Below, piece after piece: positions 5,316 through 21,952 of a DNA stretch of 34,303 bases. Numbering within the stretch: the first letter of the stretch is position 1; each line of letters opens with the position of its first letter. The stretch comes from Bacteroidota bacterium (GTDB lineage Bacteria; Bacteroidota; Rhodothermia; Rhodothermales; Bin80), in NCBI GenBank assembly GCA_026709335.1, contig JAPOTE010000011.1, positions 1 through 34,303 of the forward strand. The letters run 5' to 3'. Made by a program: the position numbers and the translations under genes. The notes beneath the pieces were generated by a model that saw nothing but the letters and a program-made list of their open reading frames with translations, made no database searches and was not told where the DNA came from.

Positions 5316-5563
5316 TCTCAGTATAGAAATGCCTGAGGCAGTAAAATTATAGCGTGGTTACGTGTTTTCTGAAAGGGCATGGAGCAAGGGTATGACATGG
5401 CCGATCCGGGTATAAAACCAAATAACTGGAATCAGGTATAGGATCAAAGTATCCCGGGCGCCATAAGGTAATGAGAATAGGCGCGAAAACAAGGTCAAGA
5501 CTTCCTATCTTAGGTGTGGTTTCGACTTAGTGGGAACTGCTGCGAAAATATTACTTCTGATTG

Positions 5564-6814
5564 ATGACTGTGACTAACCTGCAGGAGGTGATCGCGACTG
5601 GTGAGAATTCCCGCGTTGAGTTCAAGCATGATAGTGTAACTCCTGAATCTCTTGCCAAAGAGATATCGGCAATGCTTAATCTTGTCGGAGGGATAATTCT
5701 CTTGGGCGTAGAAGATGACGGTAAAATTACCGGGATGATAAGAGATACGAAGATCACAGAAGAATGGGTGATGAATATTGCACGTCAAAATATTCAACCT
5801 TCGATCATACCGGTATTCACCACGATCAAGATAAATGAAGATAAACTGGTGGGTATTATCGAACTCCATTCTGATAGCCCAAGCAAACCCTATAAGGCAA
5901 AACAAGGCAAGGCTTGGGTTACTTATGTACGTATTGGGAGCACCTCAAGAGAAGCAACACGCGAGGAAGAGGGTAGGCTCTATCAAGCCGCACGATTGGT
6001 GAGATATGAGACGAAACCTGTTTTGAACACGAGCTTCGAGAATCTGGATATCAACAGGATTGAGAACTATTATCGCACAATTCTGAAAATGGATGCGATT
6101 CCTGATCGAAAAAACATTAATGCTTGGCAACAACTGCTTCTGAATTCTGATCTACTCATTCAATGCGGTGACGATATATGTACGTCAGCTGCAGGACTTC
6201 TTCTCTTTGGACATACTCCGAACCGTCGGTTACCACAGGCAGGTGTAACGGCGGTAGTATTTCCAGGCACCGAAAAAGAATATAATACGATAGACGAAGA
6301 GAGAATCCGTGGTCCACTGACCCCAATCAAATCGGAGGATGGTTTCAAGACTTATCGAGGTGTGATTGATCGGTCAATAGATTTTGTTAAGCGGAATATC
6401 GGGAGTGTGGCGTGGCTTGATGGTGGAATACGACGAGTAGAGAAGGCACTTCCCCTTGATTCTGTGCGTGAAGCAATTATAAATGCAGTTGTTCATCGAG
6501 ATTACTCTCGAGAAGGCACTGATATCGAAATATCCATGTATACAGATCGGCTTGAAATCATATCTCCCGGGGGGCTTCCGAATGGTGTGACTGTAGAAAA
6601 AATGAAACAAGGTGTCGTAAGAGTAGCTCGTAATGAGCTTATCAAAGAGATACTTCGAGACTATGGGTATATAGAACATTTTGGCATGGGTGTTCGCAAT
6701 CGTATTATTCGACTCATGAGAGATTATAATAACACTGATCCGGACCTTATTGGATACGAGGATCGCTTCAAAGTCTGTCTTCGATACCGTGCATTACGTC
6801 AGAGGCTCAGGTAG
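5564..6814 (+). CDS. AlbA_2 (Schlafen-like) domain regulator with C-terminal HATPase_c_4-like domain
   Basis: This 416-residue cytoplasmic protein resembles the COG2865 group of predicted transcriptional regulators. Residues about 10-135 form an AlbA_2 domain: VEFKHDSVTPESLAKEISA followed by NLVGGIILLGVEDDGKITG. Residues about 300-390 look like an HATPase_c_4 module, with REAIINAVVHRDYS as the N box and DRLEIISPGGLPNGVT as the G1-like loop. Many relatives continue into a winged-helix domain; this one ends soon after (FKVCLRYRALRQRLR), so that domain is missing or very reduced. It stands alone, with 296 and 238 bases of gene-free DNA on either side. Some AlbA_2 proteins occur in defence islands, but nothing beside it supports that here. 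Start: ATG 5564; TTG 5561 precedes it. Confidence 0.85.
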   Translation: MTVTNLQEVIATGENSRVEFKHDSVTPESLAKEISAMLNLVGGIILLGVEDDGKITGMIRDTKITEEWVMNIARQNIQPSIIPVFTTIKINEDKLVGIIELHSDSPSKPYKAKQGKAWVTYVRIGSTSREATREEEGRLYQAARLVRYETKPVLNTSFENLDINRIENYYRTILKMDAIPDRKNINAWQQLLLNSDLLIQCGDDICTSAAGLLLFGHTPNRRLPQAGVTAVVFPGTEKEYNTIDEERIRGPLTPIKSEDGFKTYRGVIDRSIDFVKRNIGSVAWLDGGIRRVEKALPLDSVREAIINAVVHRDYSREGTDIEISMYTDRLEIISPGGLPNGVTVEKMKQGVVRVARNELIKEILRDYGYIEHFGMGVRNRIIRLMRDYNNTDPDLIGYEDRFKVCLRYRALRQRLR

Positions 6815-7052: not shown

Positions 7053-9464
7053 ATGTTAAAACCGGTATTGCATGTAATCTGGGCCACTGCATTACTTTGG
7101 GCGCTGCATTATGGGCCGGGTGGGCTCGCACCTTTGGGAGACCTTATAGATCCCTTACATGGACTATATCATAATGCACGTATTGCCGAGTACGATGCGA
7201 GTGATGAAATCAGTATCCCGGGGCTTGTCAGCTCAGTTATCATTGAGCGAGATGAACGAGGTGTTCCTCATATCTTCGCGGATAGTGACCAGGACGCAGT
7301 CGTTGCACTGGGATATGTCACTGCCCAGGATAGGCTTTTTCAGATGGATTTTATGAGCCGTGTCACGGGAGGGAGGTTATCTGAAATTTTCGGAGCAGGC
7401 TCAATTGAGGCAGATAAATACCTGCGATCAACTGGAATGAGATGGGCGGCAAAGCAGATCACAGAAGCACATATTGCAGAGAACAGCTTTGACTATGAGC
7501 TACTTACGTGGTTTGCAGATGGTGCAAATGCATACATTGACAATCTTTCTTATGCAGAGTGGCCATTTGAATTCAAGTTGTTCGGGTACTCTCCGGAGCA
7601 GTATACCCCCCTACATTCTCTGCTACTCGTACAGTACTTCAACTTCGATCTGACATTTGAATCCGATGATCCTGCATACGGTATTGCCTTGGAGCGTTTT
7701 GGTTCTGAGGAGTATGCCAAATTGTACCCACGGTTTTCCTCGCGATACATTCCGGTTATTCCTGCCGAGGAATCAATTTCAAAAGAATCTGCCCCAGATA
7801 CAGAGCCTGTTCCATTGGCCTCTTCGGATGGATTAGCATTGTTGAGGCGTGTGCATGATACTTTGCGAGATCATGGCATTGAAGGATTTCAACCCTCCAA
7901 GGGATCTAACAATTGGGGGGTAACAGGTCATCGCTCAGCCACAGGAGCATCTATTTTGGCGGGAGATATGCATCTGTCACTTTCGCTGCCTGCCATTTGG
8001 CATGAAGTACATATGGTTACCCCATCAATGAATACTTATGGTGTGGCTTCACCCGGTACGCCGGTGCCGATTGAGGCGTTTAATGATCACGTATCCTGGG
8101 CGTATACCAATTCCGAAATTGATGCGATAGATCATTATCTGTTGAAGTTAAGTGATGACGGTCTTCGATATGAGTTTGATGGAGAATGGCTTCCCCTGAA
8201 AATGCAGCCGGATACGATTCATGTAAAAGGGGCCCAGTCTATTATAGATACGTTGGTGCTATCGCATTTGGGGCCCGTTGTAAGGGATTCAAGCGTTGCA
8301 TTTGCAATTAAGTGGATCGCTCAGGAAAAGGGACATGTCATCAGTACGCTCTGGAAAATGAACCATGCAAAGAATGCGATTCAACTTGACAGTTTACTAC
8401 AGCACTGGCACTCACCAGCTCAAAACATACTCTATGCTGATGTAAACGGAAATCTTGGCATCAGGACTGCCGGCAAGATACCAATTCGAGCTTCGGGGCA
8501 TGGGATAGGATTTCTTGATGGCAGTACCAGTGATACCGAATGGATTGGGATAATTCCTGCTGAGGAGATGCCAAGTTCACAAAATCCCGCCCATGGATAT
8601 CTTACTGCAACCAATCAGCAGCCAACCACAGAAGATTACCCGTACTATTTGAGTCATAACTGGACACCAGCTTATCGATCACTGCGCATTGATGCACTTC
8701 TTTCGGGTAAAGACCAGCATAGCTTAGAAGATCTGATGGAGTATCAGGGTGATGTATATGTAGGTCAGTATCATACTTTCGTGCCGTTGTTAGACTCTAT
8801 ACAGTCGCTGACACCACAAGGTGAGATGGTCCGAAGGACATTGAAAGAATGGGATGGTATCGCAGTAGGGGAGGCGACTGGGCCGCTTGCTTTGCATGAA
8901 TACTTACGCGCATTAAAGCGTCTGACTTGGGATGAACCCCACTTTAAAGATCTTCCACAGCCAAGTGAAGTAGTTCTGGTCACGTTTCTTGAGCAGGGAT
9001 CGAGATGGCTTGATATTCAAGGGACACCTGAAATTGAGGATGCCCAAATGATCATGGCAATTGCTCTTGCGGAAGCTGCAGATTCGTTGCAGAGTAAATA
9101 CGGAGAAGATTGGAGCTGGAAATCCAACCATAAAGTTATTTTCCGCCATCTTACACGCTCCTCTGCATTGAATGTGTTATGGAGAGGGCCATACAGTTAT
9201 CCCGGTTATGATGAGACATTGGGGCCAGGAGGTGGACTGGAGGTCACACAAAGTGCCAGTTGGAGGATGGGTGTAGATTTCACTGAGCATCCACCACGTG
9301 GATTCGGGATTTATGCGGGTGGCCAGAGTGGCAATCCACTTAGTTATTTCTATGACCTGCATGTGCAGGATTATGTGAACTACAATTATTATACGTTGCA
9401 TAACCCCAGAGGACCGGGAAGCCTTAACGAGATCTCATCGCGCCTGATACTGCGGAAAAAATAG
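7053..9464 (+). CDS. Penicillin acylase (penicillin amidase) family N-terminal-nucleophile hydrolase
   Basis: This 803-residue protein is of the penicillin/cephalosporin/AHL acylase family. Members hydrolyse amide bonds after self-cleavage into alpha and beta chains. The predicted cleavage site and nucleophile is Ser285 in PSKGSNNWGVTG; the following Asn-Asn-Trp is typical. Other family segments are ERDERGVPHIFADS (65-78), VALGYVTAQDRLFQMDF (84-100), and after the nucleophile DMHLSLSLPAIWHEVHM and SWAYTNSEID. The N-terminus has a short hydrophobic stretch (residues about 4-19, HVIWATALLWAL) without a clear signal-peptidase site, so export or membrane anchoring is inferred. The substrate is unknown; acyl-homoserine lactones, beta-lactams or N-acylated peptides are all possible. 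It stands alone as a single-gene unit. Confidence 0.92.
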   Translation: MLKPVLHVIWATALLWALHYGPGGLAPLGDLIDPLHGLYHNARIAEYDASDEISIPGLVSSVIIERDERGVPHIFADSDQDAVVALGYVTAQDRLFQMDFMSRVTGGRLSEIFGAGSIEADKYLRSTGMRWAAKQITEAHIAENSFDYELLTWFADGANAYIDNLSYAEWPFEFKLFGYSPEQYTPLHSLLLVQYFNFDLTFESDDPAYGIALERFGSEEYAKLYPRFSSRYIPVIPAEESISKESAPDTEPVPLASSDGLALLRRVHDTLRDHGIEGFQPSKGSNNWGVTGHRSATGASILAGDMHLSLSLPAIWHEVHMVTPSMNTYGVASPGTPVPIEAFNDHVSWAYTNSEIDAIDHYLLKLSDDGLRYEFDGEWLPLKMQPDTIHVKGAQSIIDTLVLSHLGPVVRDSSVAFAIKWIAQEKGHVISTLWKMNHAKNAIQLDSLLQHWHSPAQNILYADVNGNLGIRTAGKIPIRASGHGIGFLDGSTSDTEWIGIIPAEEMPSSQNPAHGYLTATNQQPTTEDYPYYLSHNWTPAYRSLRIDALLSGKDQHSLEDLMEYQGDVYVGQYHTFVPLLDSIQSLTPQGEMVRRTLKEWDGIAVGEATGPLALHEYLRALKRLTWDEPHFKDLPQPSEVVLVTFLEQGSRWLDIQGTPEIEDAQMIMAIALAEAADSLQSKYGEDWSWKSNHKVIFRHLTRSSALNVLWRGPYSYPGYDETLGPGGGLEVTQSASWRMGVDFTEHPPRGFGIYAGGQSGNPLSYFYDLHVQDYVNYNYYTLHNPRGPGSLNEISSRLILRKK

Positions 9465-10080: not shown

Positions 10081-11700
10081 ATGGCCAAGGTAGAAGTCGT
10101 AATGCCTAAGATGGGCGAAAGTATTACTGAAGGAGATGTAAATGTCTGGCATAAAAAGGAAGGAGATTCTGTAGAACTGGATGAGGTACTCCTGGAAATT
10201 GGGACGGACAAAGTTGATACCGATGTTCCTGCACCCGCAACAGGAGTGATTGCAAAAATTTTTACCCCCGAAGGAGAAACCGTTCCGGTAGGACATGTGA
10301 TCGCTCTGATTCAAACCGAGGCAGAAGAGATAAATGGCTCAGAAAAAGAAGCACCACCCCCTTCGCCCGAAATAGCACAATCAAATAACACGGAAACCCA
10401 AGATACACCTGTCGTAATGCCTAAGATGGGTGAGAGTATCACTGAGGGGACTGTGATTACATGGCATAAACAGGTGGGAGATGCAGTGGAACTGGATGAA
10501 ACCCTACTGGAAATCGGCACGGACAAGGTAGATACGGATGTCCCGGCTCCCGCCGGGGGCATTCTGAAGGCAGTTCTGGTTTCGGAAGGAGAAACGGTCG
10601 AAGTGGGGACAACTATCGCAATTATTGGTGTAGAAGGGAGTGAGCCTATTCCTTTGCCGATACCAGAAACATCCGCAGAGATTCCTCCCGAGTCAACCCT
10701 TGAGAGCACACAGTCTATTGCATCTGAAGCACAGCCTGAGAGTAATCGACATCTGGAAGATGGTCGTTTCCTGAGCCCATTGGTGCGCAGTATCGCGCAG
10801 GCCGAAAATATTTCACGCGATGAGTTGGTCACAATCAAGGGCTCTGGACGTGATGGTCGAATTACCAAGACAGACATAATAGATCATCTGGAATCACGTG
10901 AGCGGGTTCCAAAGTCAATCAAGCCCCAGGCCAAACCTGCCCGAAGAAAAGGGCTGCCACTGGTTACACCTCATACGGTCAGCGAATCCAACGAAGTGCA
11001 GGTTGTGAAGATGGATCGGATGCGTCAGTTGATCGCGGAGCATATGATTGAATCGCGCCGCACCTCAGCTCATGTTACCTCGTTTGCAGAGATTGATGTG
11101 ACCCGTCTGGTTCGGATTCGCGAAGCAAACAAGAAGGATTTTTTTCAGCGAGATGGGATAAAATTAACCTATTCTCCGTTTCTCGTGTACGCTGCTGTAG
11201 AAGCTCTTCGAGATTTTCCAATATTAAACAGTTCTGTAGAAGGAGACAAGATTCTTATTCGGAAGAATCATCATATTGGGATGGCAGTCGCAATTGAATC
11301 AGGATTGATTGTCCCCGTAATTCGCCATGCAGGGCGATTGAGTATTACAGGACTTGCACATGCGACGAATGATCTGGCACACCGTGCCCGCTATTCAGAA
11401 TTGGTTCCGGATGACCTCCAGGGCGGCACCTTTACTCTGACGAATGTTGGCTCCCTTGGATCAATGATGGGAACTCCCATTATCTTACAGCCTCAAGTAG
11501 CAATTTTAGCCACCGGAACAATCAAAAAACGCCCCGTAGTGGTTGAGCATCCTGAACTGGGGGACAGTATTGCAATACGGCATATGATGATTCTTTCGCT
11601 ATCGTATGATCACCGGATTATTGACGGCGCAATGGGAATTGCATTTCTTCGTAGATACGCGGAAGTGATTGAAAACCTTGATCCAAATATGGAGTTGTGA
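10081..11700 (+). CDS. 2-oxo acid dehydrogenase E2 (dihydrolipoamide acyltransferase), two lipoyl domains
   Basis: This 539-residue core subunit of a 2-oxo acid dehydrogenase complex transfers acyl groups from E1-bound thiamine diphosphate to CoA through swinging lipoyl arms. It has two N-terminal lipoyl domains with lipoylated Lys44 and Lys149, each in EIGTDKVDTDVPAPA. A Pro/Ser/Glu-rich linker follows. The E3-binding domain covers about 231-271 (LSPLVRSIAQAENISRDELV, GRITKTDI). The catalytic domain covers about 305-539, with SYDHRIIDG giving His511 and Asp515. The lipoyl-site sequence resembles Bacteroidota E2s for branched-chain or 2-oxoglutarate substrates more than PDH. No E1 or E3 gene is adjacent, so substrate is unresolved. 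Confidence 0.94.
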   Translation: MAKVEVVMPKMGESITEGDVNVWHKKEGDSVELDEVLLEIGTDKVDTDVPAPATGVIAKIFTPEGETVPVGHVIALIQTEAEEINGSEKEAPPPSPEIAQSNNTETQDTPVVMPKMGESITEGTVITWHKQVGDAVELDETLLEIGTDKVDTDVPAPAGGILKAVLVSEGETVEVGTTIAIIGVEGSEPIPLPIPETSAEIPPESTLESTQSIASEAQPESNRHLEDGRFLSPLVRSIAQAENISRDELVTIKGSGRDGRITKTDIIDHLESRERVPKSIKPQAKPARRKGLPLVTPHTVSESNEVQVVKMDRMRQLIAEHMIESRRTSAHVTSFAEIDVTRLVRIREANKKDFFQRDGIKLTYSPFLVYAAVEALRDFPILNSSVEGDKILIRKNHHIGMAVAIESGLIVPVIRHAGRLSITGLAHATNDLAHRARYSELVPDDLQGGTFTLTNVGSLGSMMGTPIILQPQVAILATGTIKKRPVVVEHPELGDSIAIRHMMILSLSYDHRIIDGAMGIAFLRRYAEVIENLDPNMEL

Positions 11701-11732: not shown

Positions 11733-12650
11733 ATGCCAAAAGATTCCGATTTAGTCAAAAAAATGACAACGGATACGATTCTCGCACGAATAGATTTCTT
11801 CATCAGTGTTCTGGCACATACTAGAAGCAAGTCAACGGTAGATACATATAGACGATCACTGGGAGTTTTCACTCTGTGGGTGGATGAGCAAGGTGGAAGT
11901 ATAGAACTTTCACAGAAAAATCTGGAGAAGTATCCGGTGTACTTGAGAACGCAAAGAAAAGTGACCTCCAGAACCATCAAAATCTACCTGACCGCGTTGC
12001 GGGGCTTTTTCACTTTTCTGTCAAAAGAGGGGTTATTACATCACGACCCGCTTGTGAATCTCAATATAAAACCTGACACGTCTGGCGAGGGTAAGGCCAG
12101 AGCTATTCTGACGAAGGAAGAAATTAAATCTTTGTTTGAAGCTTCAAAAGGGGAACAGATCGTTAAATTACGTGATCGAGCCATTCTGTGCTGCATGCTC
12201 CTTGAAGGAATAACAGAAACAGAGGTCAGCAATTGTAATTATGGAGATTTGGAACATACTCTGATGGGAGAAGAGTTGCGTATCTGCGGCAGTGGAGGTC
12301 CTCTGTGCATCCCATTAGATCAGAGAACTTATCGGAGTCTGACGGCCTATCTCACGAAGCGAAATGAAACACTTCGATCCCAAGATCCACTGTTTATATC
12401 CCATGGACCGCGAGAAGTAGGCGAACGGCTGAAGGTTCGATCTGTACGATCCCGTATGCGCGTGTTGCTGGATCGAGCTAAGGTTCTACGTACCGAAGTA
12501 TCTCCCCAGAGTTTATCACACACATCTATTTATTTGCAGATTTTGAATGGGGTCACCAGAGAACAACTTCGTGAGCGTACTCGTCCGTGGAGACTCTTTC
12601 ATCGAATTGAATATCTCAAGTCAAGAGGACTTATTGATCCCTCCTATTGA
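11733..12650 (+). CDS. XerC/D-like tyrosine recombinase homologue with lost catalytic residues
   Basis: This 305-residue intact frame has the two-domain layout of XerC/XerD. The N-terminal SAM-like DNA-binding domain (about 15-105) contains STVDTYRRSLGVFTLWV and SRTIKIYLTALRGFFTFL. The C-terminal catalytic-fold domain (about 125-300) contains RAILCCMLLEGITETEV. Aligning by eye to XerD, the GLRxSE Arg is Thr161 (GITETE), the beta-hairpin GKGxK Lys is Ser187 (CGSGGPL), and HxLRH reads QSLSH with Gln259 and Ser262. A Tyr at 294 (RIEYLK) may sit near the nucleophile position. Strand exchange is therefore unlikely, although the frame is open and of full length. It starts 32 bases after the E2 gene, and its last 20 bases overlap the convergent porQ-like gene. 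A DNA-binding role is inference. Confidence 0.8.
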   Translation: MPKDSDLVKKMTTDTILARIDFFISVLAHTRSKSTVDTYRRSLGVFTLWVDEQGGSIELSQKNLEKYPVYLRTQRKVTSRTIKIYLTALRGFFTFLSKEGLLHHDPLVNLNIKPDTSGEGKARAILTKEEIKSLFEASKGEQIVKLRDRAILCCMLLEGITETEVSNCNYGDLEHTLMGEELRICGSGGPLCIPLDQRTYRSLTAYLTKRNETLRSQDPLFISHGPREVGERLKVRSVRSRMRVLLDRAKVLRTEVSPQSLSHTSIYLQILNGVTREQLRERTRPWRLFHRIEYLKSRGLIDPSY

Positions 12651-13605
12651 AATGGGTCATGACAGTAAACTGGTGCAACCCGGCGAATGACCAAGAGCTG
12701 AATGAATAGTCAAGGTGGAACCGGCGGATTCGAAGCCCAAAGCCAACAGCCGTTCCCGCCAGATCAAGCCGTTGGTCAGACTTGAGATTCCGTTTACGGT
12801 GATTGTAGCCCAAGCGTAAATGGAAAACAGGAATTGCTCGGAATTCCAGGCTAAATATCGCATGACGAAATCCCTTGTCGACAGAAGTAATTTGATGGAC
12901 GTTTTGCAGGTTGTTCAGGGTCAGGCCGACGAGTACAGGGATGTATCTCAACTGTTTGGATACGGCAATGCGGAGATCCAAGGGGACTTCATCCCTTGTT
13001 TGACCAAGGCTTGAAAGAGTTACCCCGATGTTTGAAGCCCCCGCGGAAAGTGTAAATTCTTGTTCAGGAATGTAATAGACAATTCCTGCGTCTATTGCAA
13101 CGGCAAGGGCGTTGAACTCTGCAATGGAGGTGTAGGCGATATGCAGATTTGCCCCATAGCGAAGTTGGGGGAGCCATGAACGGGACAGTCCGGCCGTGAG
13201 AGCAATATTACCTGAAGAAAACGAGCTACTGGATTCCCCGTACTGATCAGATCGAGGGATTCGGCCCCAGTAAATAAATCGCGTACCGACAGCCGCCATG
13301 CCAAGAACGCCGAGGTCACGGCTATATGTGACTGTACCTGCCTGGAGATCGCTGAGGTGGTTGAGCCATGAAATAGAAAGGGCCCCATCAGCCTTCTTAT
13401 CTAACAAGGCCGGATTGTAAAACATTGCACTAGCTTGGGAGGAAGTAGATGTCAGAAGGGTTCCCCCGAGAGCCGCAGCTTGCGCAGAAGGAGCAAGTCG
13501 AAGAAAGTCGAAACTGGACAGCGACTGGCTCCGCACATTCACGGCTCCAGACAGGGCGATCATCAGTACAATCAACCAGAAAACAACAAAATTCCTGCTC
13601 ATCAT
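12631..13605 (-). CDS. porQ: PorQ-like outer-membrane protein (PorV/PorQ family, type IX secretion)
   Basis: This 324-residue predicted outer-membrane beta-barrel has a signal peptide (FVVFWLIVLMIALSGAVNVRS) before Gln27. The start of the mature region, FDFLRLAPSAQAAALGGTLL, and FYNPALLDKK are typical of PorV/PorQ proteins. The rest alternates Gly/aromatic strands (YGANLHIAYTSIAEFNALA, AGASNIGVTLSSLG) and ends in a barrel strand (FAGLHQFTVMTHF). In type IX systems PorQ-PorZ helps attach secreted proteins to the surface; PorV is the alternative, but length and motifs fit PorQ better. The start is one of the paired ATGs at 13605/13602. It is divergent from secA and overlaps the recombinase gene tail-to-tail by 20 bp. 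Confidence 0.8.
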   Translation of the reverse strand: MMSRNFVVFWLIVLMIALSGAVNVRSQSLSSFDFLRLAPSAQAAALGGTLLTSTSSQASAMFYNPALLDKKADGALSISWLNHLSDLQAGTVTYSRDLGVLGMAAVGTRFIYWGRIPRSDQYGESSSSFSSGNIALTAGLSRSWLPQLRYGANLHIAYTSIAEFNALAVAIDAGIVYYIPEQEFTLSAGASNIGVTLSSLGQTRDEVPLDLRIAVSKQLRYIPVLVGLTLNNLQNVHQITSVDKGFRHAIFSLEFRAIPVFHLRLGYNHRKRNLKSDQRLDLAGTAVGFGLRIRRFHLDYSFSSWSFAGLHQFTVMTHFNRRDQ

Positions 13606-13766: not shown

Positions 13767-16700
13767 ATGTTGAATTTCGTCAACCAGCTATTCGGTGATA
13801 AGAATCAGCGGGAGATTCGTCGCAAGTATGAACCCGTGGTGACTCAGATCCACGAAGCTATTTCTGCAGTAAAGGCTTTGTCAGATGATGAACTGCGTGA
13901 CCGCACAGAAAAGTTTCGAGCGCAGATCCAGGACGCCGTCGCAGAAATAGAAGAAAGAAAACAGGAAATCCAGACGATCCTGCGTACGGGATATTCCGAT
14001 GAAGAGAGGAAAGATGCGCTCACACTGGAGGATCGACAGGATTATTTCGAGGAGCTTGATGAATTAGAAGATGAGTGGCTGGATGTTGCAGAAGATACAT
14101 TGAATGAGATTCTACCCGATGCTTTTGCATTGATCAAGGAAGTCTGTCGCCGCCTGACGGAAAGAGGCTCCCTTAAGGTGCGTGCCACTGAGCACGATCA
14201 CGAGATCCGTCGTCGTCGCGCATATCCTGATATTCAGGGTTCCTGGGCCATATGGCCTAATGAATGGGAAGCGGGTGGCACCATCATCAAATGGGAAATG
14301 ATTCCCTATGATGTGCAGTTAATTGGTGGAGTGGTTCTCCATAATGGTAATATTGCGGAGATGAAGACAGGAGAGGGCAAAACCTTGGTTGCGGTAGCGC
14401 CGGTATATTTGAATGCACTTCTTGGCCGTGGAGTACATTTGATCACAGTGAACCCTTATCTCGCACAGCGTGACTCAGAGTGGATGGGCCCTATTTTCGA
14501 GTTTCTGGGGTTAACGGTAGATGTGATTGACGAATATGATGCACACTCCCAAGAGAGACGCTCTGCCTATCGGGCAGATATTACCTACGGCACAAATAAT
14601 GAATTCGGATTTGATTATCTGCGAGATAACTCTTTTGTCATTGACTCAAATCAGCTCGTCCAGCGAGGACATCACTTTGCAATTGTAGATGAGGTGGATT
14701 CTGTATTGGTGGATGAAGCCCGAACCCCGTTGATCATTAGTGGCCCGGTCCCGCAGTCGAGCAAGAGTAGGTTTGATGAACTCAAACCGGCTGTAGATCG
14801 ACTGGTACATGCGCAGAAGCGACTGGTCGCGGGATTTGTATCTGAGGCAGAAAAAAAATTAAAGGAACGAGATCTTGCTCTAGAACGTGGAGAAGAGAAA
14901 GAAGCGAAAGAGCTTGAGTCAGAGGCAGGTCTGAGTTTGCTCCGGGCAGCACGGGGATTTCCTCGCAATAAACGATTGATGAAGATCTTGCAGGAACCCG
15001 GGGTTGAGCAACTCAGGCGAAAAACAGAATATTTCTATCTGCAGGATAATGCCAAGAGAATGCCGATTGTAGATGATGCAATGCATTACGCCCTTGACGA
15101 AAAGCAACACGCACTTGAACCTACCGATCAGGGGCGCGAATTCATTGCTCGGGCTGCAGGTGAAGATGTGAATTTGTTTATTCTCCCAGATGTAGGGGAG
15201 GAGACTGCGCGCTTGAAGCGAGAATACGAAGCTCAGAAAGAGAAACTCTATGAATCCATTCGCGACCGTGAAGATCTTTCCGATGAGAAACGAGAGCATA
15301 AGCTGCAGAATGATTTGCGGGTTCTAAAAAATAAGCTTGATGAGGAGACGCGTAAATTGTATTCCACATATTCAGATCGAGCGGAGAGATTGCACGCAAT
15401 TGAACAGCTTTTGAAAGCGTATACTCTGTACGAACGTGATACGGAATATATCGTCCAGGATGGGAAAGTGCAAATCGTGGATACCCATACAGGACGTGTA
15501 CTTTCTGGACGTCGATATTCGGATGGATTGCATCAGGCCATTGAGGCGAAAGAAGGCGTAAAAGTTCAGGCGGCCACTCAGACCTACGCCACAATTACGC
15601 TACAGAACTACTTCCGGATGTATAGTAAACTGGCTGGTATGACTGGAACTGCCGAAACGGAGGCCGAAGAGTTTCATAAGATTTACAAAATGGATGTTGT
15701 AGTCGTCCCGACCAATAAACCTATAGATCGAGACGATCTCGATGATCTCGTTTTCAGATCAAAACGCGAAAAATACGGTGCGGTAATTGAGAAAATTGAA
15801 GAGTACCACGACAAGGGACAGCCCGTTCTCGTGGGAACTACCTCGGTTGAAGTTTCCGAAACCTTGAGTCGGATGCTCAAACGTGCCCGGATACAGCATA
15901 ACGTACTCAATGCGAAGCGGGATCGTGCTAAGCAGGAATCTCTGATCGTAGCAGAGGCAGGAAAGCGTGGTGCAGTGACGATTGCCACTAACATGGCCGG
16001 CCGTGGTACAGACATTAAACTCGGAGACGGAATTGTAAAACTTGGAGGTCTTGCCATTATTGGTACTGAACGTCATGAGAGTCGCCGCATTGACCTTCAG
16101 CTCAGAGGGCGATCCGGACGCCAGGGCGATCCTGGAGAAAGCCAGTTTTATGTATCGCTCGAAGATGATTTGATGCGACTCTTTGGACCTGATCGGGTAG
16201 CGGGAGTTATGGATCGACTTAAGCTCGAGCCCGGGGCTGTGATCACACATCCATGGGTTACCAAGAGCATTGAGCGGGCGCAAAAAAAGGTAGAACAGAA
16301 CAATTTTGCCATTCGAAAACGGCAGCTTGAATATGATGATGTGTTGAATTCTCAGCGTGAAGTGATTTATGATCGCCGGATGCATGCACTCAAGGGAGAG
16401 CGATTTCGAGGGGAGATTCTGGATATGCTTTTCAAACTGATTGAACGGCTTGTAAAGCGCTATCACGGTGAAGGAGAAATGGAGGAATTGCGTGATGAGT
16501 TCCGCCGGCTATTATCGTTTGACTATGACATTGATCGTAAAAGATTCTTTGATCTTGGTGATGATGGTGTGACTGAGGATGCATACAATAAAGCAGTTGA
16601 GTATTACGAGGCCAAGCGCAGCGCACTCGCGGCTCCGTTTTTTGAGAGTATGAAGAAGGTTCAGGAAAGCAATGCAGAGAATAAGCCCGAACGTGCGTTT

Positions 16701-17240
16701 GTTGATTTTTCGGATGGCCATCGCAGGCTCCGAACGATTGTTCGGATTGAGGATGTTGTAGAATCAGAAGGGCAGGAGATCAATGATAGTCTCGAGCGAA
16801 CGGCGATGCTTTCGTTGATTGATGAGCACTGGACCGAGCACTTACGCTCACTCGATGAAGTGAAGGAGGGGATTGGTCTTCGGGCATATGGCCAGAGAGA
16901 TCCGCTTATAGAGTATAAAATGGAGGCGTTTCGTCTGTTCGCAGAAGTGATTGAGCAGATTGGGGAAAATGTGGTGACTTTTCTGTTCCGGGCAGGGCCT
17001 GTGGTGGAAAAGCGTGGAGGTAATGCAAGGCAGACCAGTCGGTTGGATCACAAACGCGCTCAGGCGAGGCAACAATCTCCTCCTGCTTCATTTGGAATCG
17101 CAGCAACCAATTCAAATGGTGCGAGCCGTGACCCAAGTGCAAAACGGCAACCTGTTCTGGCCGGACAGCATGTTGGTAGAAATGCACCCTGCCCATGCGG
17201 GAGTGGGAAGAAACATAAGCAGTGCTGCGGACGCATATAG
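13767..17240 (+). CDS. secA: Protein translocase ATPase SecA (long Bacteroidota form)
   Basis: This 1157-residue ATPase drives preproteins through SecYEG. Landmarks are Walker A MKTGEGKT (199-206), DEVDSVLVDEARTPLIISGP (308-327), the SDGLHQAIEAKEG segment (585-597), KLAGMTGTA (621-629), NMAGRGTDIKLG, the ATPase arginine region RGRSGRQGDPGESQFY, and the C-terminal zinc motif CPCGSGKKHKQCC (Cys1142, 1144, 1153, 1154). Compared with the 901-residue E. coli protein, Walker A is about 95 residues later and the segment between ISGP and the YIV-DG motif is about 110 residues longer and highly charged, probably coiled coil (about 355-385 and 480-535). These insertions are typical of this phylum. No Shine-Dalgarno precedes ATG 13767. 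recN follows after 11 bases. Confidence 0.97.
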   Translation: MLNFVNQLFGDKNQREIRRKYEPVVTQIHEAISAVKALSDDELRDRTEKFRAQIQDAVAEIEERKQEIQTILRTGYSDEERKDALTLEDRQDYFEELDELEDEWLDVAEDTLNEILPDAFALIKEVCRRLTERGSLKVRATEHDHEIRRRRAYPDIQGSWAIWPNEWEAGGTIIKWEMIPYDVQLIGGVVLHNGNIAEMKTGEGKTLVAVAPVYLNALLGRGVHLITVNPYLAQRDSEWMGPIFEFLGLTVDVIDEYDAHSQERRSAYRADITYGTNNEFGFDYLRDNSFVIDSNQLVQRGHHFAIVDEVDSVLVDEARTPLIISGPVPQSSKSRFDELKPAVDRLVHAQKRLVAGFVSEAEKKLKERDLALERGEEKEAKELESEAGLSLLRAARGFPRNKRLMKILQEPGVEQLRRKTEYFYLQDNAKRMPIVDDAMHYALDEKQHALEPTDQGREFIARAAGEDVNLFILPDVGEETARLKREYEAQKEKLYESIRDREDLSDEKREHKLQNDLRVLKNKLDEETRKLYSTYSDRAERLHAIEQLLKAYTLYERDTEYIVQDGKVQIVDTHTGRVLSGRRYSDGLHQAIEAKEGVKVQAATQTYATITLQNYFRMYSKLAGMTGTAETEAEEFHKIYKMDVVVVPTNKPIDRDDLDDLVFRSKREKYGAVIEKIEEYHDKGQPVLVGTTSVEVSETLSRMLKRARIQHNVLNAKRDRAKQESLIVAEAGKRGAVTIATNMAGRGTDIKLGDGIVKLGGLAIIGTERHESRRIDLQLRGRSGRQGDPGESQFYVSLEDDLMRLFGPDRVAGVMDRLKLEPGAVITHPWVTKSIERAQKKVEQNNFAIRKRQLEYDDVLNSQREVIYDRRMHALKGERFRGEILDMLFKLIERLVKRYHGEGEMEELRDEFRRLLSFDYDIDRKRFFDLGDDGVTEDAYNKAVEYYEAKRSALAAPFFESMKKVQESNAENKPERAFVDFSDGHRRLRTIVRIEDVVESEGQEINDSLERTAMLSLIDEHWTEHLRSLDEVKEGIGLRAYGQRDPLIEYKMEAFRLFAEVIEQIGENVVTFLFRAGPVVEKRGGNARQTSRLDHKRAQARQQSPPASFGIAATNSNGASRDPSAKRQPVLAGQHVGRNAPCPCGSGKKHKQCCGRI

Positions 17241-17251
17241 GTATAAATCTG

Positions 17252-18970
17252 ATGTTGCGTTCCCTCTACATTCGGGATTACGCCATCATTGATGAGCTTG
17301 AGGTCGAATTTGGGCCTGGTCTCAACGTTCTGACAGGAGAGACTGGTGCGGGGAAGTCCATCATGATTGGTGCACTTAAGTTGATTTTGGGTGAACGTGC
17401 TTCATCGGATACGATTCGTTCGGGTGCGAGAAAAGCAATTGTGGAAGGAGTCTTTGATCACGCGGCGTTACCAGAGTTACAACAGCTTCTTCAGGAACAT
17501 GAAATTCCGGTTGAGCCTGTATTGATCATGAGGCGGGAAGTAGCTAAAACCCATAGTCGAGGATTCATTAATGATTCACCTGCAACGCTCCCTGTGATGC
17601 GAGATGTTGCAGCACAGTTGATTGATCTGCATGGTCAACATGAACACCAGTCCCTGCTCAGGGTGCAGACTCATCTGCAGTTGATAGACGATTTTGGCGG
17701 GCTTGCAAGTTTGCGTTCAACCTACTTGGAAGTATATGAGCAAGTAGAGAACCTAATAGATAGGCACGAGGCGCTTAAGGCACGTCAGAATAACTTGGAG
17801 GCATCTCGGGAGCGGCTGACTTATGAAATTACAGAGATTGATACCATTGCTCCACAGGAAGGAGAAGAAGAGAAACTCCAGGGAGAAATGCGTCGACTTG
17901 AACATGCAGAGCACCTCTATAATGCCACAGCATCTCTTCATTCCATCCTCTATGCTCGCGATCATTCTGTCACAGATCAATTGGTGACCGCATTAAATGA
18001 GCTCCAGACTCTTGCAAGTATTGATCAGATACTGGAAGCATCCAGTCAGGAGATCAACCAAGCATATATCTTGGTGAAAGAAAATGCTTCATTCCTGCAG
18101 GAATACAATATGTCTATTGAGTTTAATCCTTCCCGGCTGGAAGAAATACGTAATCGACTGGGGGACTTGGATACTCTAAAAAGAAAGTATGGTGGCAGCT
18201 TGGCTGCGGTACTTGAGTATCGTGAGCAGATTGCAGCGGAGTATGATGATTTAGTCAATTATGATGCCGCTCTTGAAAAACTTGAGCAGGAGCTTGTACA
18301 GACTAAGAAGGTACTTTCTCACGCTGCAATCAAGTTGTCAGGCAAACGATACGAAGTAGCTCGGAAGGTTGAGTATTCTGTTACAGCAGAGTTTACCAGT
18401 CTTGGAATGGCATCAGGGCAGCTTCGTGTTCAGATGCAGAAGCAGGAAGATCCTGCCGGCTGGATTACACCACAAGATCCAGGAAATCAGAAAAGAAGAT
18501 ATAAAGCTTATCGTCATGGGATGGATGTAGTTGAGTTTCTGATTACAACGAATACAGGAGAAATTCCCCGCCCTTTAGCGCGGATAGCTTCTGGGGGAGA
18601 GATTAGTCGTATTATGTTAGCAATAAAGCGTGTTCTGGCAAAGAGTGCCCAGCTTCCCATCTTGGTATTTGATGAAATTGATGTTGGAATCAGTGGAGCC
18701 ATTGCACGCAAAGTGGGGAGGAGCATGGAGGATTTAGCCCGCTGTCATCAAATTATTGCTATTACTCATCTGCCTCAAATTGCTGCATTGGCTCACACAC
18801 ATCACATAGTTGAAAAACGCATCTCTGATGCGAGAACTACAACACGAATCAGACAGCTCCAGAATGAAGAATCGTTGGAGCAAATTGCAATGCTTATCAC
18901 GGGTAAAGAGGTCACAGATGCCGCCCGACAGAGTGCCCGGGAGCTAATGAATATCAGCCATGAAATCTGA
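17252..18970 (+). CDS. recN: DNA repair protein RecN
   Basis: This 572-residue SMC-like ATPase acts in double-strand break repair. The start MLRSLYIRDYAIIDELEVEF at ATG 17252 matches the family; an upstream in-frame GTG at 17222 lies inside secA and is rejected. Walker A GETGAGKS is at about residues 29-36. The Q-loop-like IDLHGQHEHQSLL is near 126-138. A long coiled-coil region spans about 165-400. The ABC signature (LARIASGGEISRIMLAIKRVL) lies before Walker B, LPILVFDEIDVGISG (about 468-482), and ITHLPQIAALAHTHHIVEK supplies the His switch. Its last 11 bases overlap pgm, indicating translational coupling within a secA-recN-pgm-phosphohexomutase run. Confidence 0.97.
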   Translation: MLRSLYIRDYAIIDELEVEFGPGLNVLTGETGAGKSIMIGALKLILGERASSDTIRSGARKAIVEGVFDHAALPELQQLLQEHEIPVEPVLIMRREVAKTHSRGFINDSPATLPVMRDVAAQLIDLHGQHEHQSLLRVQTHLQLIDDFGGLASLRSTYLEVYEQVENLIDRHEALKARQNNLEASRERLTYEITEIDTIAPQEGEEEKLQGEMRRLEHAEHLYNATASLHSILYARDHSVTDQLVTALNELQTLASIDQILEASSQEINQAYILVKENASFLQEYNMSIEFNPSRLEEIRNRLGDLDTLKRKYGGSLAAVLEYREQIAAEYDDLVNYDAALEKLEQELVQTKKVLSHAAIKLSGKRYEVARKVEYSVTAEFTSLGMASGQLRVQMQKQEDPAGWITPQDPGNQKRRYKAYRHGMDVVEFLITTNTGEIPRPLARIASGGEISRIMLAIKRVLAKSAQLPILVFDEIDVGISGAIARKVGRSMEDLARCHQIIAITHLPQIAALAHTHHIVEKRISDARTTTRIRQLQNEESLEQIAMLITGKEVTDAARQSARELMNISHEI

Positions 18971-20555
18971 AGATACACTAATCACTGCCGGAGATATCCC
19001 CGGTTTGGTAAGTGCCTATTACACTGAATCTCCGGAAGGGGAGGTCACCTTTGGAACCTCCGGTCATCGGGGATCCTCACTGAATGGTACCTTTAATGAA
19101 GCACATATTCTGGCAATCAGTCAGGCGATCTGCGAGATTCGTATGGCAAAGGGGCCAGTCATCATAGGAAAGGACACGCATGCCTTGTCTGAGCCGGCTT
19201 CTAGGACTGTACTGGAGGTTTTTGCCGGTAACGGTGTTGATGTGATTCTAGCGGAAGGCTATGCACCCACCCCGGTGGTATCTCATGCACTGCTGAAATG
19301 GAACTTTGCTCATGAGATCAATGAGATTGATGCAGTAATTTTGACACCTTCGCATAATCCCCCAGAGGATGGCGGACTGAAATATAATCCCTCACATGGT
19401 GGGCCAGCGGATGGGTATTGTACAGGGAGAATTCAGGAGCGGGCTCGTGAATTGATGGCGTCTGGATTAAAAGGAGTTAAGCGAATTCCTTACAAAAAGG
19501 CACTGAATGCCTCGAGAACCTCTGTAAAGGATTTGATGACGCCATATATCGAAGATTTATCTTCTGTGATTGATATGGAGGCAATTCGTGTTGCGAATCT
19601 GGCAATTGGAGTGGATCCAATGGGAGGTGCAGCTGTGCATTACTGGGGCAGGATTGCTGAACATTATAATGTGGAGATTAGCATGTTCAACGATAAAATC
19701 GATCCTGCATTTGAGTTTATGCCACTGGATCATGATGATAAGGTCCGAATGGATTGTTCTTCATGGTATGCAATGCAGAATTTGATAGGCATGCTGGAAT
19801 TTTTTGATATTGCTTTCGGCAATGATCCGGATGTGGATCGGCATGGAATCGTCACCAAGAGCAGTGGGTTATTGAATCCAAATCATTATCTGGCAGCGGC
19901 CAGCGAGTATTTACTCACCAATCGTCCTGAGTGGCCAGCAGATGCTCACTTTGAAAAGACAATTGTAACAAGCTCTATGATTGACCGAGTTGCAAAAAGG
20001 CGGCGTCGCAAGGTTCTTGAAATGCCAGTCGGGTTCAAATGGTTTGTGGATGGGTTGTACGATGAAACCTGTGGGTTTGCCAGCGAAGAGAGTGCGGGCG
20101 CATCATTTCTCCGCAGGGACGGTACAGTATGGACTACGGATAAAGATGGAATCATTATGGGGCTGCTGGCTGCGGAAATGCTTGCCGTCACCGAACTTGA
20201 TCCAGGAGAGATCTATGAAGATTTGATCAATAGACATGGCGAAATGTACTATAAACGAATTGACTCTCCGGCTACATCGGATCAGAGGGAAATCTTGGCA
20301 GAGTTATCAGTAGGTAATGTGAAAGCCAAGGAGCTGGCAGGAGATCGGATCACAGCGAAACTCACGAAAGCACGGGGAAATCATGAGCCAATTGGTGGCC
20401 TCAAAGTGACAACGAAGAATGGCTGGTTTGCGGCTAGGCCATCTGGAACAGAGAATTTGTATAAGATTTATGCAGAGAGTTTTGTGAGCGAAGAGCATTT
20501 ACATCAGATCCTGGAGGAAGCACAATCTATTGTAAAGGAGGCTCTCTCAATATGA
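18960..20555 (+). CDS. pgm: Phosphoglucomutase (alpha-D-glucose phosphate-specific)
   Basis: This 531-residue cytoplasmic enzyme interconverts glucose 1-phosphate and glucose 6-phosphate. It closely resembles E. coli Pgm (546 residues) along its length. VTFGTSGHRGSS (29-40) gives the substrate loop. ILTPSHNPPEDGGLKYNP (127-144) carries phosphoserine Ser131. NDPDVDRHGIV (about 288-298) is the metal loop. The segments PVGFKWFVDGLYD, EESAGASFLRRDGT and AARPSGTENLYKIYAESF form the sugar and phosphate sites. The start ATG 18960 lies inside the end of recN (11-bp overlap), and its stop overlaps the next gene by 4 bp (ATGA). Confidence 0.96.
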   Translation: MKSEDTLITAGDIPGLVSAYYTESPEGEVTFGTSGHRGSSLNGTFNEAHILAISQAICEIRMAKGPVIIGKDTHALSEPASRTVLEVFAGNGVDVILAEGYAPTPVVSHALLKWNFAHEINEIDAVILTPSHNPPEDGGLKYNPSHGGPADGYCTGRIQERARELMASGLKGVKRIPYKKALNASRTSVKDLMTPYIEDLSSVIDMEAIRVANLAIGVDPMGGAAVHYWGRIAEHYNVEISMFNDKIDPAFEFMPLDHDDKVRMDCSSWYAMQNLIGMLEFFDIAFGNDPDVDRHGIVTKSSGLLNPNHYLAAASEYLLTNRPEWPADAHFEKTIVTSSMIDRVAKRRRRKVLEMPVGFKWFVDGLYDETCGFASEESAGASFLRRDGTVWTTDKDGIIMGLLAAEMLAVTELDPGEIYEDLINRHGEMYYKRIDSPATSDQREILAELSVGNVKAKELAGDRITAKLTKARGNHEPIGGLKVTTKNGWFAARPSGTENLYKIYAESFVSEEHLHQILEEAQSIVKEALSI

Positions 20556-21952
20556 CGAGTTATTTGAGAATGGCTGACTCGTTACGTTTTGGCACAGATG
20601 GCTGGCGGGCTGTAATTGGACGGGAGTTTACGTTTGCAAACCTTAGCCGAATGGCTCGAGCAACCGTTAAATGGCTCAAGCTGTCAAACCCTGCCCCCCG
20701 TGTCGTTGTTGGCCACGACACACGATTCATGGGGCGTTTATTTGCAGAGCATGTCGCACAGGAATTCGCAAATGAAGGTGCAACGGTCATCCTCGCTTCC
20801 GGCCCCACACCTACTCCTGCAATCAGTTGGGCGGCAACTCGTCAAGGGATCAGCGCAGGCGTTGTCATTACTGCGAGCCACAATCCTCCGGAGTATAGTG
20901 GATACAAGATCAAAACACATTTTGGTGGTCCGGCTACGGATATGATGACCGGTGCAGTGGAAAAGTTGATGGAGCCTTATGCACCGAGTTCGCGAAGGCA
21001 CGGCCGTGAGTTAGTAGAAGAGAGGAATATCACGGCCGAGTATACAGAATATTTGCGCAGTTTATTTGATTTGGGCTCAATAGATGTAAGACTTGTCCAT
21101 GATCCGATGTACGGGGCAGGGCAGGGGATTCTTTCCAGACTTCTTAGCAGTAAATGTGTTACAGAAATTCGTAGTGAAATCAATCCGGGGTTTGGTGGTA
21201 TAGCACCGGAGCCGATTGAGAAAAATCTGGGAGAACTGATGGAGAGCGTTGTACGGCAAGGTGCGACAGTTGGCATTGCACATGATGGAGATGCAGATCG
21301 AATTGGTGTTGTAGATGAGCGTGGAGATATTGTCACGTCCCATTTGGTAATGGCACTTTTGGCTGCACACTTACATAAGTATCACAGTTTGAAGGGAGCA
21401 ATTGTACGGACGTTTGCAACTTCTGCAATTCTGACAAAAATGGGGGCGGCTTGGGGGATACCGGTGGAAACCTATCCGATCGGATTCAAACATGTAGCTC
21501 CCCGCTTTTTAGAGACGGATGTTTTAGTCGGTGGTGAAGAATCCGGTGGCATTGCAGTTGCAGGGCACATTCCGGAGCGTGACGGGATATACGTGGCTCT
21601 TGTGTTATTGAACATGTTGGCGGAACGACAGAAGCCTCTCACCGCATTGGTTCAGGAGTTGTTTGATGAATTCGGGCCACATGCCTATTATCGCTCAGAT
21701 GTACATACACAGAAACAGCCGGAAATTATTGCAGACTTGCGTCGAATGGGCGGTCTGCGGCAAATTGGAGGGCGTAAGGTAAATTCAATGGACTTGCTTG
21801 ACGGATTCAAGCATTTGATGGAAGATGCATGGCTGTTGATCCGTCCTTCGGGCACAGAGCCTGTGCTTCGGATTTACGCTGAAGCTCCAACCGGTTCCGA
21901 GGCAGAAACGTTGGTCCATGATGTTCTGACCCAGTTTGATCTGCCAACTTGA
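20552..21952 (+). CDS. Phosphohexomutase (phosphoglucomutase/phosphomannomutase family)
   Basis: This 466-residue cytoplasmic alpha-D-phosphohexomutase has the four family loops in order: SLRFGTDGWRAVIG (10-23); VVITASHNPPEYSGYK with phosphoserine Ser109; the metal loop HDGDADRIG (about 244-252); the sugar loop GGEESGGIA (about 326-334); and the phosphate loop RPSGTEPVLRIYAEA near 430-444. It is distinct from the Pgm encoded just upstream and probably acts on mannose or glucosamine phosphates or has mixed specificity; the GEESGG loop allows both Glc and Man. It overlaps pgm by ATGA and is preceded by an AGGAGG about 10 bases before its ATG, one of the few good Shine-Dalgarno sequences in the window. 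It is the last gene of the secA-recN-pgm run. Confidence 0.93.
   Translation: MTSYLRMADSLRFGTDGWRAVIGREFTFANLSRMARATVKWLKLSNPAPRVVVGHDTRFMGRLFAEHVAQEFANEGATVILASGPTPTPAISWAATRQGISAGVVITASHNPPEYSGYKIKTHFGGPATDMMTGAVEKLMEPYAPSSRRHGRELVEERNITAEYTEYLRSLFDLGSIDVRLVHDPMYGAGQGILSRLLSSKCVTEIRSEINPGFGGIAPEPIEKNLGELMESVVRQGATVGIAHDGDADRIGVVDERGDIVTSHLVMALLAAHLHKYHSLKGAIVRTFATSAILTKMGAAWGIPVETYPIGFKHVAPRFLETDVLVGGEESGGIAVAGHIPERDGIYVALVLLNMLAERQKPLTALVQELFDEFGPHAYYRSDVHTQKQPEIIADLRRMGGLRQIGGRKVNSMDLLDGFKHLMEDAWLLIRPSGTEPVLRIYAEAPTGSEAETLVHDVLTQFDLPT

Follow-up and report, generated by a model that had tools for sequence, protein, structure and literature searches.

A Xer-like protein with lost catalytic residues, probably retained as a DNA-binding protein in Bacteroidota

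DNA-binding proteins with a dead recombinase fold are already known from phages and transposons. A Xer protein can also act without recombination, as does XerD of B. subtilis, which, unlike the protein described here, is an active recombinase as well. This XerD unloads SMC (PMC12322038, partial text, citing Karaboja 2021). In TnsF of Tn6022 an inactivated tyrosine recombinase domain is used for DNA targeting, in combination with N-terminal zinc fingers and Tn7-type partners (PMC10293859, partial text). MrpR (YopR) of the prophage SPbeta has lost the recombinase function and works as a DNA-binding repressor; its catalytic arginine and histidine are lost, with Ser/Val at the first arginine and Asn at the histidine (PMC10516654, partial text). 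SroF of phage phi3T has the same fold, and its title in the PDB list is that of a phage repressor. By analogy, MrpR would be the closest functional precedent for our gene, with TnsF and XerD as SMC unloader as further ones.

The gene, which we call pseudo-Xer, lies in a window of 34,303 nucleotides (the whole stretch of DNA that was analysed). Its open reading frame runs uninterrupted over 305 codons from an ATG. The gene and its conserved neighbours are:

10081..11700, plus strand: 2-oxoacid dehydrogenase E2, conserved upstream neighbour (Pfam, locus comparison)
11733..12650, plus strand: pseudo-Xer gene, 305 amino acids, stop included
13767..17240, plus strand: SecA, conserved downstream neighbour (Pfam, locus comparison)
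17222..18970, plus strand: SMC_N protein which we take to be RecN-like, conserved downstream neighbour (SMC_N domain, locus comparison)

A further conserved neighbour (12631-13605, minus strand) has no Pfam match, is convergent with pseudo-Xer and overlaps the last 20 bases of its frame.

The protein has the core-binding plus catalytic-domain fold of the XerC/XerD recombinases, as indicated by Pfam, by an AlphaFold2 model and by the match to XerH. The N-terminal SAM-like domain PF02899 was found from residue 28 at 7e-8, over the cut-off, and the Phage_integrase domain PF00589 at 7.9e-6, its 26.2 bits lying just under the cut-off of 27.1. The model, in which both domains are formed, has a mean pLDDT of 91.7. 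By this prediction of high confidence the 305-codon frame is a real protein with an intact fold. The initial annotation had described a full-length XerC/D-like protein, and this description holds. Among solved structures, the nearest to the model are those of Xer, Cre and similar tyrosine recombinases. For XerH we obtained Z 19.2 and an rmsd of 3.9 over 284 aligned residues, for the repressor SroF Z 16.2 and 5.3 over 261 residues, and for the repressor MrpR Z 12.8 and 17.3 over 249 residues, where the large rmsd may reflect a different domain arrangement. Similarity of fold alone does not show the function of the protein. The best sequence match in the PDB was E. coli XerD (3.6e-8), but the scores against the curated NCBIfam equivalog models were far below the cut-offs for both XerD (88.8 against 329.6 bits) and XerC (83.3 against 335.15 bits). 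The following parts could be assigned:

11829..11888, plus strand: helix of residues 33-52 in the core-binding domain, counterpart of alphaB, which faces the DNA in XerH (model, conservation; PMC5241119, partial text)
11967..12026, plus strand: helix of residues 79-98, counterpart of alphaD (model helix and conservation)
12093..12647, plus strand: domain of catalytic fold, residues 121-305 (model and structural matches over the range)
12435..12476, plus strand: helix of residues 235-248, counterpart of alphaK, the major-groove helix in XerH (model, conservation; PMC5241119, partial text)

The catalytic set R-K-H-R-H-Y is absent from the window protein, which has T, S, Q, S, P and an unconserved Y at these positions. 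The catalytic residues are numbered as in E. coli XerD (sequence taken from MG1655), and the alignment with XerD gives:

12213..12215, plus strand: T161 in place of catalytic Arg I (R148)
12291..12293, plus strand: S187 in place of the beta-hairpin Lys (K172)
12507..12509, plus strand: Q259 in place of the catalytic His (H244)
12516..12518, plus strand: S262 in place of catalytic Arg II (R247)
12585..12587, plus strand: P285 in place of His/Trp (H270)
12612..12614, plus strand: Y294, aligned with the nucleophile Y279, unconserved in the genus

The first four replacements had been named from the window sequence before and are confirmed exactly; the change of H270 to P285 is an additional loss. 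In the tyrosine column the eight remaining genus sequences carry D, N, D, D, D, A, D and S, and judged by this comparison Tyr294 is therefore not a conserved nucleophile.

To see the losses in context we tabulated the residues of 149 family rows, in which collections overlap and some genes are counted twice. Alignment with these rows does not bring back the window protein's catalytic residues at shifted positions. The first catalytic position is Ser in 121 rows and Arg in 6. Among the matches listed, 50 of 79 named loci have the set S-K-H-T-H-Y; these 50 belong to the window's order outside its family, and the 79 include other lineages. Members of the Ignavibacteria type typically show S-K-Y/F-R-L/I-Y. 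The sets of the Chlorobi-related members vary between S-K-H-R-H-Y and R-K-H-Q-H-Y, and L127 alone among them has all six residues, as does L273, a very divergent long-branch row. In the window's family we found N-S-N-T-E-D, T-K-Q-T-V-H, A-K-K-R-T-Y, T-A-K-T-A-Q and N-A-G-R-P-F, and the set of the window, T-S-Q-S-P-Y, has similar ones in its genus. From these rows the loss of the first arginine appears near-universal in the clade and either old or frequent, and the further losses appear lineage-specific, with the window's family having lost most. The active site would thus have been lost stepwise, different residues being gone in different lineages of the same gene. A regain of the arginine in the Chlorobi rows is possible, because the rows which bear it are nested in the tree. 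For XerH a change from R to K at the first arginine position served as the catalytic mutant control (PMC5241119, partial text). Beyond the window's family, the majority of the order's members retain the lysine, both histidines and the tyrosine, so the catalytic pocket is still partly constrained there and some residual chemistry may persist.

Could the protein still be a recombinase with relocated residues, in which a gained Arg-x-Arg before the His/Trp position replaces the lost arginines? Among the matches listed, 75 of the 79 named loci do have an arginine directly before this position and 74 have one at minus three, and the complete sets of L127 and L273 also speak for such a reading. However, the intact type B Xers described below carry the arginine before the histidine of the His/Trp position in addition to both catalytic arginines, and it is thus not evidently a substitute. 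Moreover the window's genus has lost the lysine in part and both histidines and Arg II in 9/9 sequences, and the tyrosine is found in the window alone. We consider this explanation highly improbable.

The gene is embedded in a recurring order of housekeeping genes, which is the same in the window as in relatives from its order: PRPP synthetase, ribosomal L25-like protein, peptidyl-tRNA hydrolase, membrane pyrophosphatase, E2, pseudo-Xer, SecA and the RecN-like protein. For L25, peptidyl-tRNA hydrolase and RecN these names are what we presume from the sequences. Among the matches listed, E2 was found at 42, SecA at 30 and the RecN-like gene at 24 of 80 loci (79 and the window), many of which lie on short contigs. 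No mobile-element genes were recognised among the neighbours of pseudo-Xer. The neighbours in Ignavibacteria are different from those in the order. Between the pyrophosphatase and E2 the window has an AlbA_2/HATPase gene (5561-6814) and a penicillin-amidase gene (7053-9464), mostly with no counterpart in the relatives compared, and a tandem pair of phosphoglucomutase/phosphomannomutase-type genes covers 18960-21952.

For the window's genus we computed dN/dS by NG86, using open frames read from the upstream stop onwards. The ratio was between 0.124 and 0.196 in the six unsaturated pairs out of 36; the other 30, including all pairs with the window, were saturated or undefined. The RecN-like neighbour gave similar ratios (0.12-0.24) and SecA lower ones (0.03-0.05). 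It is hardly credible that pseudo-Xer is a decaying gene or the remnant of a mobile element. The gene does change faster than its neighbours, with identities of 53-60% within the genus (SecA: 84-89%) and 32-35% within the family, and it sits on a long branch. However, the frame is open in 9/9 full-length copies of the genus, dN/dS is low and the synteny among housekeeping genes is order-wide. The initial annotation had assumed selection for something other than recombination, and the ratios of 0.12-0.20 in six pairs together with the presence throughout the order agree with this. The two findings it had named against its reading, residues merely shifted in the alignment or a neutral ratio with absence in close relatives, did not appear: the residues are not shifted, dN/dS is not neutral and the close relatives carry the gene.

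We then asked which parts of the protein have been kept. In the rest of the order 102 positions are at least 95% conserved, as calculated from 56 rows (the fragmentary loci L109, L120 and L123 are outside this set), and the genus, represented by eight sequences (the near-duplicate L009 is outside), keeps 59% of them overall. Retention is 78% for alphaB, 73% for alphaK and 64% for alphaD. It amounts to 81% in the segment around Arg I (whose arginine had already been replaced), 56% for the beta-hairpin and 55% around HxxR, and falls to 29% for the His/Trp and 4% for the Tyr motif. Since alphaD (64%) and HxxR (55%) are near the average and the Arg I segment stands at 81%, what carries the contrast in these alignments is alphaB and alphaK on one side and the two lost motifs on the other. 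In XerH the N-terminal helices and alphaK are used in the DNA major groove (PMC5241119, partial text). Because the fold and the DNA-facing helices are kept and catalysis is lost, the sequences point to DNA binding.

Matches to the window protein were found in 57 of 59 genomes (its own and relatives of the order). A true ortholog is missing in three of the 59, namely G037, where the weak match is another Xer, and G009 and G030, which have no match. A profile built from proteins of the order (A2, without the window protein) matched 106 of 244 genomes of the class at E<=1e-60, of which 104 belong to the order (104/114) and two do not. Several of the ten order genomes without a match are incomplete assemblies. 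We looked at three of the genomes lacking pseudo-Xer; there the adjacent E2 gene is likewise absent or broken by the end of a contig, which suggests gaps in the assembly. A wider profile (A3, which contains the window protein as a row) gave matches at E<=1e-45 in 83 of the 394 genomes taken from the whole phylum, with no match in the listed genomes of families f16 and f17 of the same class. The window protein scored 356.1 bits with A3 and 211.6 bits with A2; canonical XerC/D proteins scored 65-108 with A3. The named loci among the matches listed come from Salinibacter, Rhodothermus, Longimonas, Roseithermus and Rubrivirga and further from Ignavibacteria, Candidatus Thermochlorobacteriaceae, Chloroherpetonaceae and Kryptonium. 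One Ignavibacteria assembly has two copies on two contigs (L133 and L135, PMJR01 contigs).

In a tree of 85 rows (a quick tree calculated without bootstrap, with the three long rows L272, L273 and L270) 47 pseudo-Xers fall on one side of a branch with an SH-aLRT of 97, separate from both types of intact Xer as well as from XerC and XerD. By this grouping the clade spans genomes of the window's order, Ignavibacteria, Chlorobi-related bacteria and Kryptonia. The window gene has both the clade membership and the order of E2, gene, SecA and RecN-like protein. In 10 of 14 genomes reached via named loci, pseudo-Xer occurs beside a XerD over the curated cut-off and a XerC-like protein; the remaining four are all of the window's order. 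Because of this coexistence pseudo-Xer is a third paralogue and not an altered XerC or XerD, and the tree and the coexistence together rule out that it is an ortholog of either. With XerC and XerD it shares the two-domain fold, the chromosomal location and vertical inheritance; it differs from them by the lost catalytic residues, the scores below the curated cut-offs and the separate clade. The literature searched, largely from outside subscription journals and including PMC5357621, PMC2731167 and PMC3025954 (partial texts), held no description of the clade. One copy is atypical of its family: L016, from a genome with 8% contamination (G013), belongs to the window's family by kinship and groups elsewhere, possibly on a foreign contig. 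It was excluded from the counts for family f1 and the genus and included in the tree.

It had also been suggested that the protein might regulate XerCD/dif recombination. In this form the suggestion is not supported, as nothing in the order (59 and 12 genomes examined), the window's genome included, scored close to the cut-off for XerD or XerC. Such proteins are present in two other families of the class and in several other members of the phylum. Genomes of the order have instead an intact Xer with the full catalytic set, either of type B (about 317 aa) or of type A (about 300 aa), and this is the case for nearly all that were examined. A search of the window's genome for active XerC and XerD thus yielded neither; it has one intact Xer, of type A, and a dif-like site on the same contig (L037, G000:C49:44166-44185).

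The site has the form of a palindrome, ATGYAACATAA-N6-TTATGTTRCAT, which lies beside the type A Xer. The core was found with at most one mismatch near 14 of 23 type A loci, 13 of which are clearly palindromic. Genome-wide, AACATAA-N6-TTATGTT occurred with at most one mismatch in 20/20 type A genomes, exactly in 17 of them, with background matches in some genomes, notably G018, where a reversed control pattern gives as many. There is usually one exact copy per genome, and in 17/20 type A genomes the site and the type A gene share a contig. It was found in 0/8 other genomes, namely G028 and seven type B genomes, and among four further genomes with XerC/XerD-like proteins G151 alone has a site, with one mismatch. 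In the single contig of G011 the GC skew (40 stretches) flips near 1.44-1.52 Mb, which places the opposite point at about 3.1 Mb. The type A gene (3,134,605) and the dif-like site (3,136,374) both lie near that point and thus about opposite the GC-skew origin. We read the type A Xer with its symmetric site as a putative single-recombinase Xer/dif system; to our knowledge no such system has been described.

Might pseudo-Xer join the intact Xer at dif as a regulatory or structural subunit which controls recombination without cutting? FtsK retains its gamma domain, the activator of XerD, in 17/17 genomes tested, and together with the intact type A or B Xer in nearly all order genomes this is consistent with such a role. 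However, the site is symmetric or nearly so in type A genomes and fits one recombinase on both arms. Pseudo-Xer is also found beside a complete XerC plus XerD and beside two unrelated Xer types. In addition, the genus has 11 residues after the Tyr column as opposed to 19 in XerD and 23 in XerC (4 to 33 elsewhere in the family), and with this short tail the helix for cyclic docking in the tetramer is probably missing; a C-terminal helix is absent from the model of the window protein. We therefore regard a role as dif subunit as unlikely. A narrower version, in which pseudo-Xer is the second-arm partner in a half-dead XerCD pair, is disfavoured in view of the symmetric site and of the genomes with a complete XerC plus XerD beside pseudo-Xer. 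A symmetric dif does not require pseudo-Xer to bind a second arm, and pseudo-Xer is retained where XerC and XerD are both present; what it does probably lies outside dimer resolution.

The explanation we prefer, with moderate confidence, is that pseudo-Xer is a catalytically dead, chromosomally inherited Xer paralogue which works as a non-enzymatic DNA-binding protein. It would still clamp specific DNA sites with its two domains, would be unable to cleave them, and would act by occupying or shaping the DNA, as the repressor MrpR does. Promoters or chromosome-organising sites are candidate targets. Binding, target sites and cellular role are all inferred here. Long retention across several bacterial lineages likewise suggests that the protein now holds DNA rather than cuts it. 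With MrpR it shares the recombinase fold and the loss of catalytic arginine and histidine, but it differs from the precedents in its setting. MrpR and SroF are phage regulators, and a repressor of the MrpR type is a prophage gene which controls lysogeny, whereas pseudo-Xer is a bacterial gene of a separate Xer lineage, has housekeeping neighbours and is inherited vertically. Unlike TnsF it has neither zinc fingers nor Tn7-type partners: Pfam found no zinc finger in the window protein, and there are no transposon genes among the annotated neighbours.

One specific form of this explanation is that pseudo-Xer organises the chromosome, for example by unloading SMC at the terminus or elsewhere. The activity of B. 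subtilis XerD speaks for it, and so does the fact that pseudo-Xer is a third paralogue maintained separately from dif recombination. The link to SMC or the terminus is drawn by analogy, however, and in G011 the gene is mid-arm (688 kb), a location that is uninformative on binding sites. As a specific role we therefore hold it to be doubtful. Tentatively, a third Xer paralogue in several Bacteroidota lineages may have lost its first arginine early and become a dedicated chromosome-organising or regulatory DNA binder, which was kept after the order dropped XerC/XerD for dimer resolution by a single recombinase; we see this history as possible rather than likely. A chromosomal dead Xer, vertically inherited across deep lineages and found beside two modes of dimer resolution, would be a recombination-free test case for other roles of Xer proteins.

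The type of intact Xer was also considered as a correlate of the additional decay of pseudo-Xer. This link is not supported, as families f4 and f5 have type A and keep the usual residues. Beside type B Xers (for example L148, with intact residues) we found no convincing palindromes, and for the E. coli-type dif pattern the reversed control was as frequent. In G028 the type B Xer (L179) looks degraded and adjoins a type A-like one.
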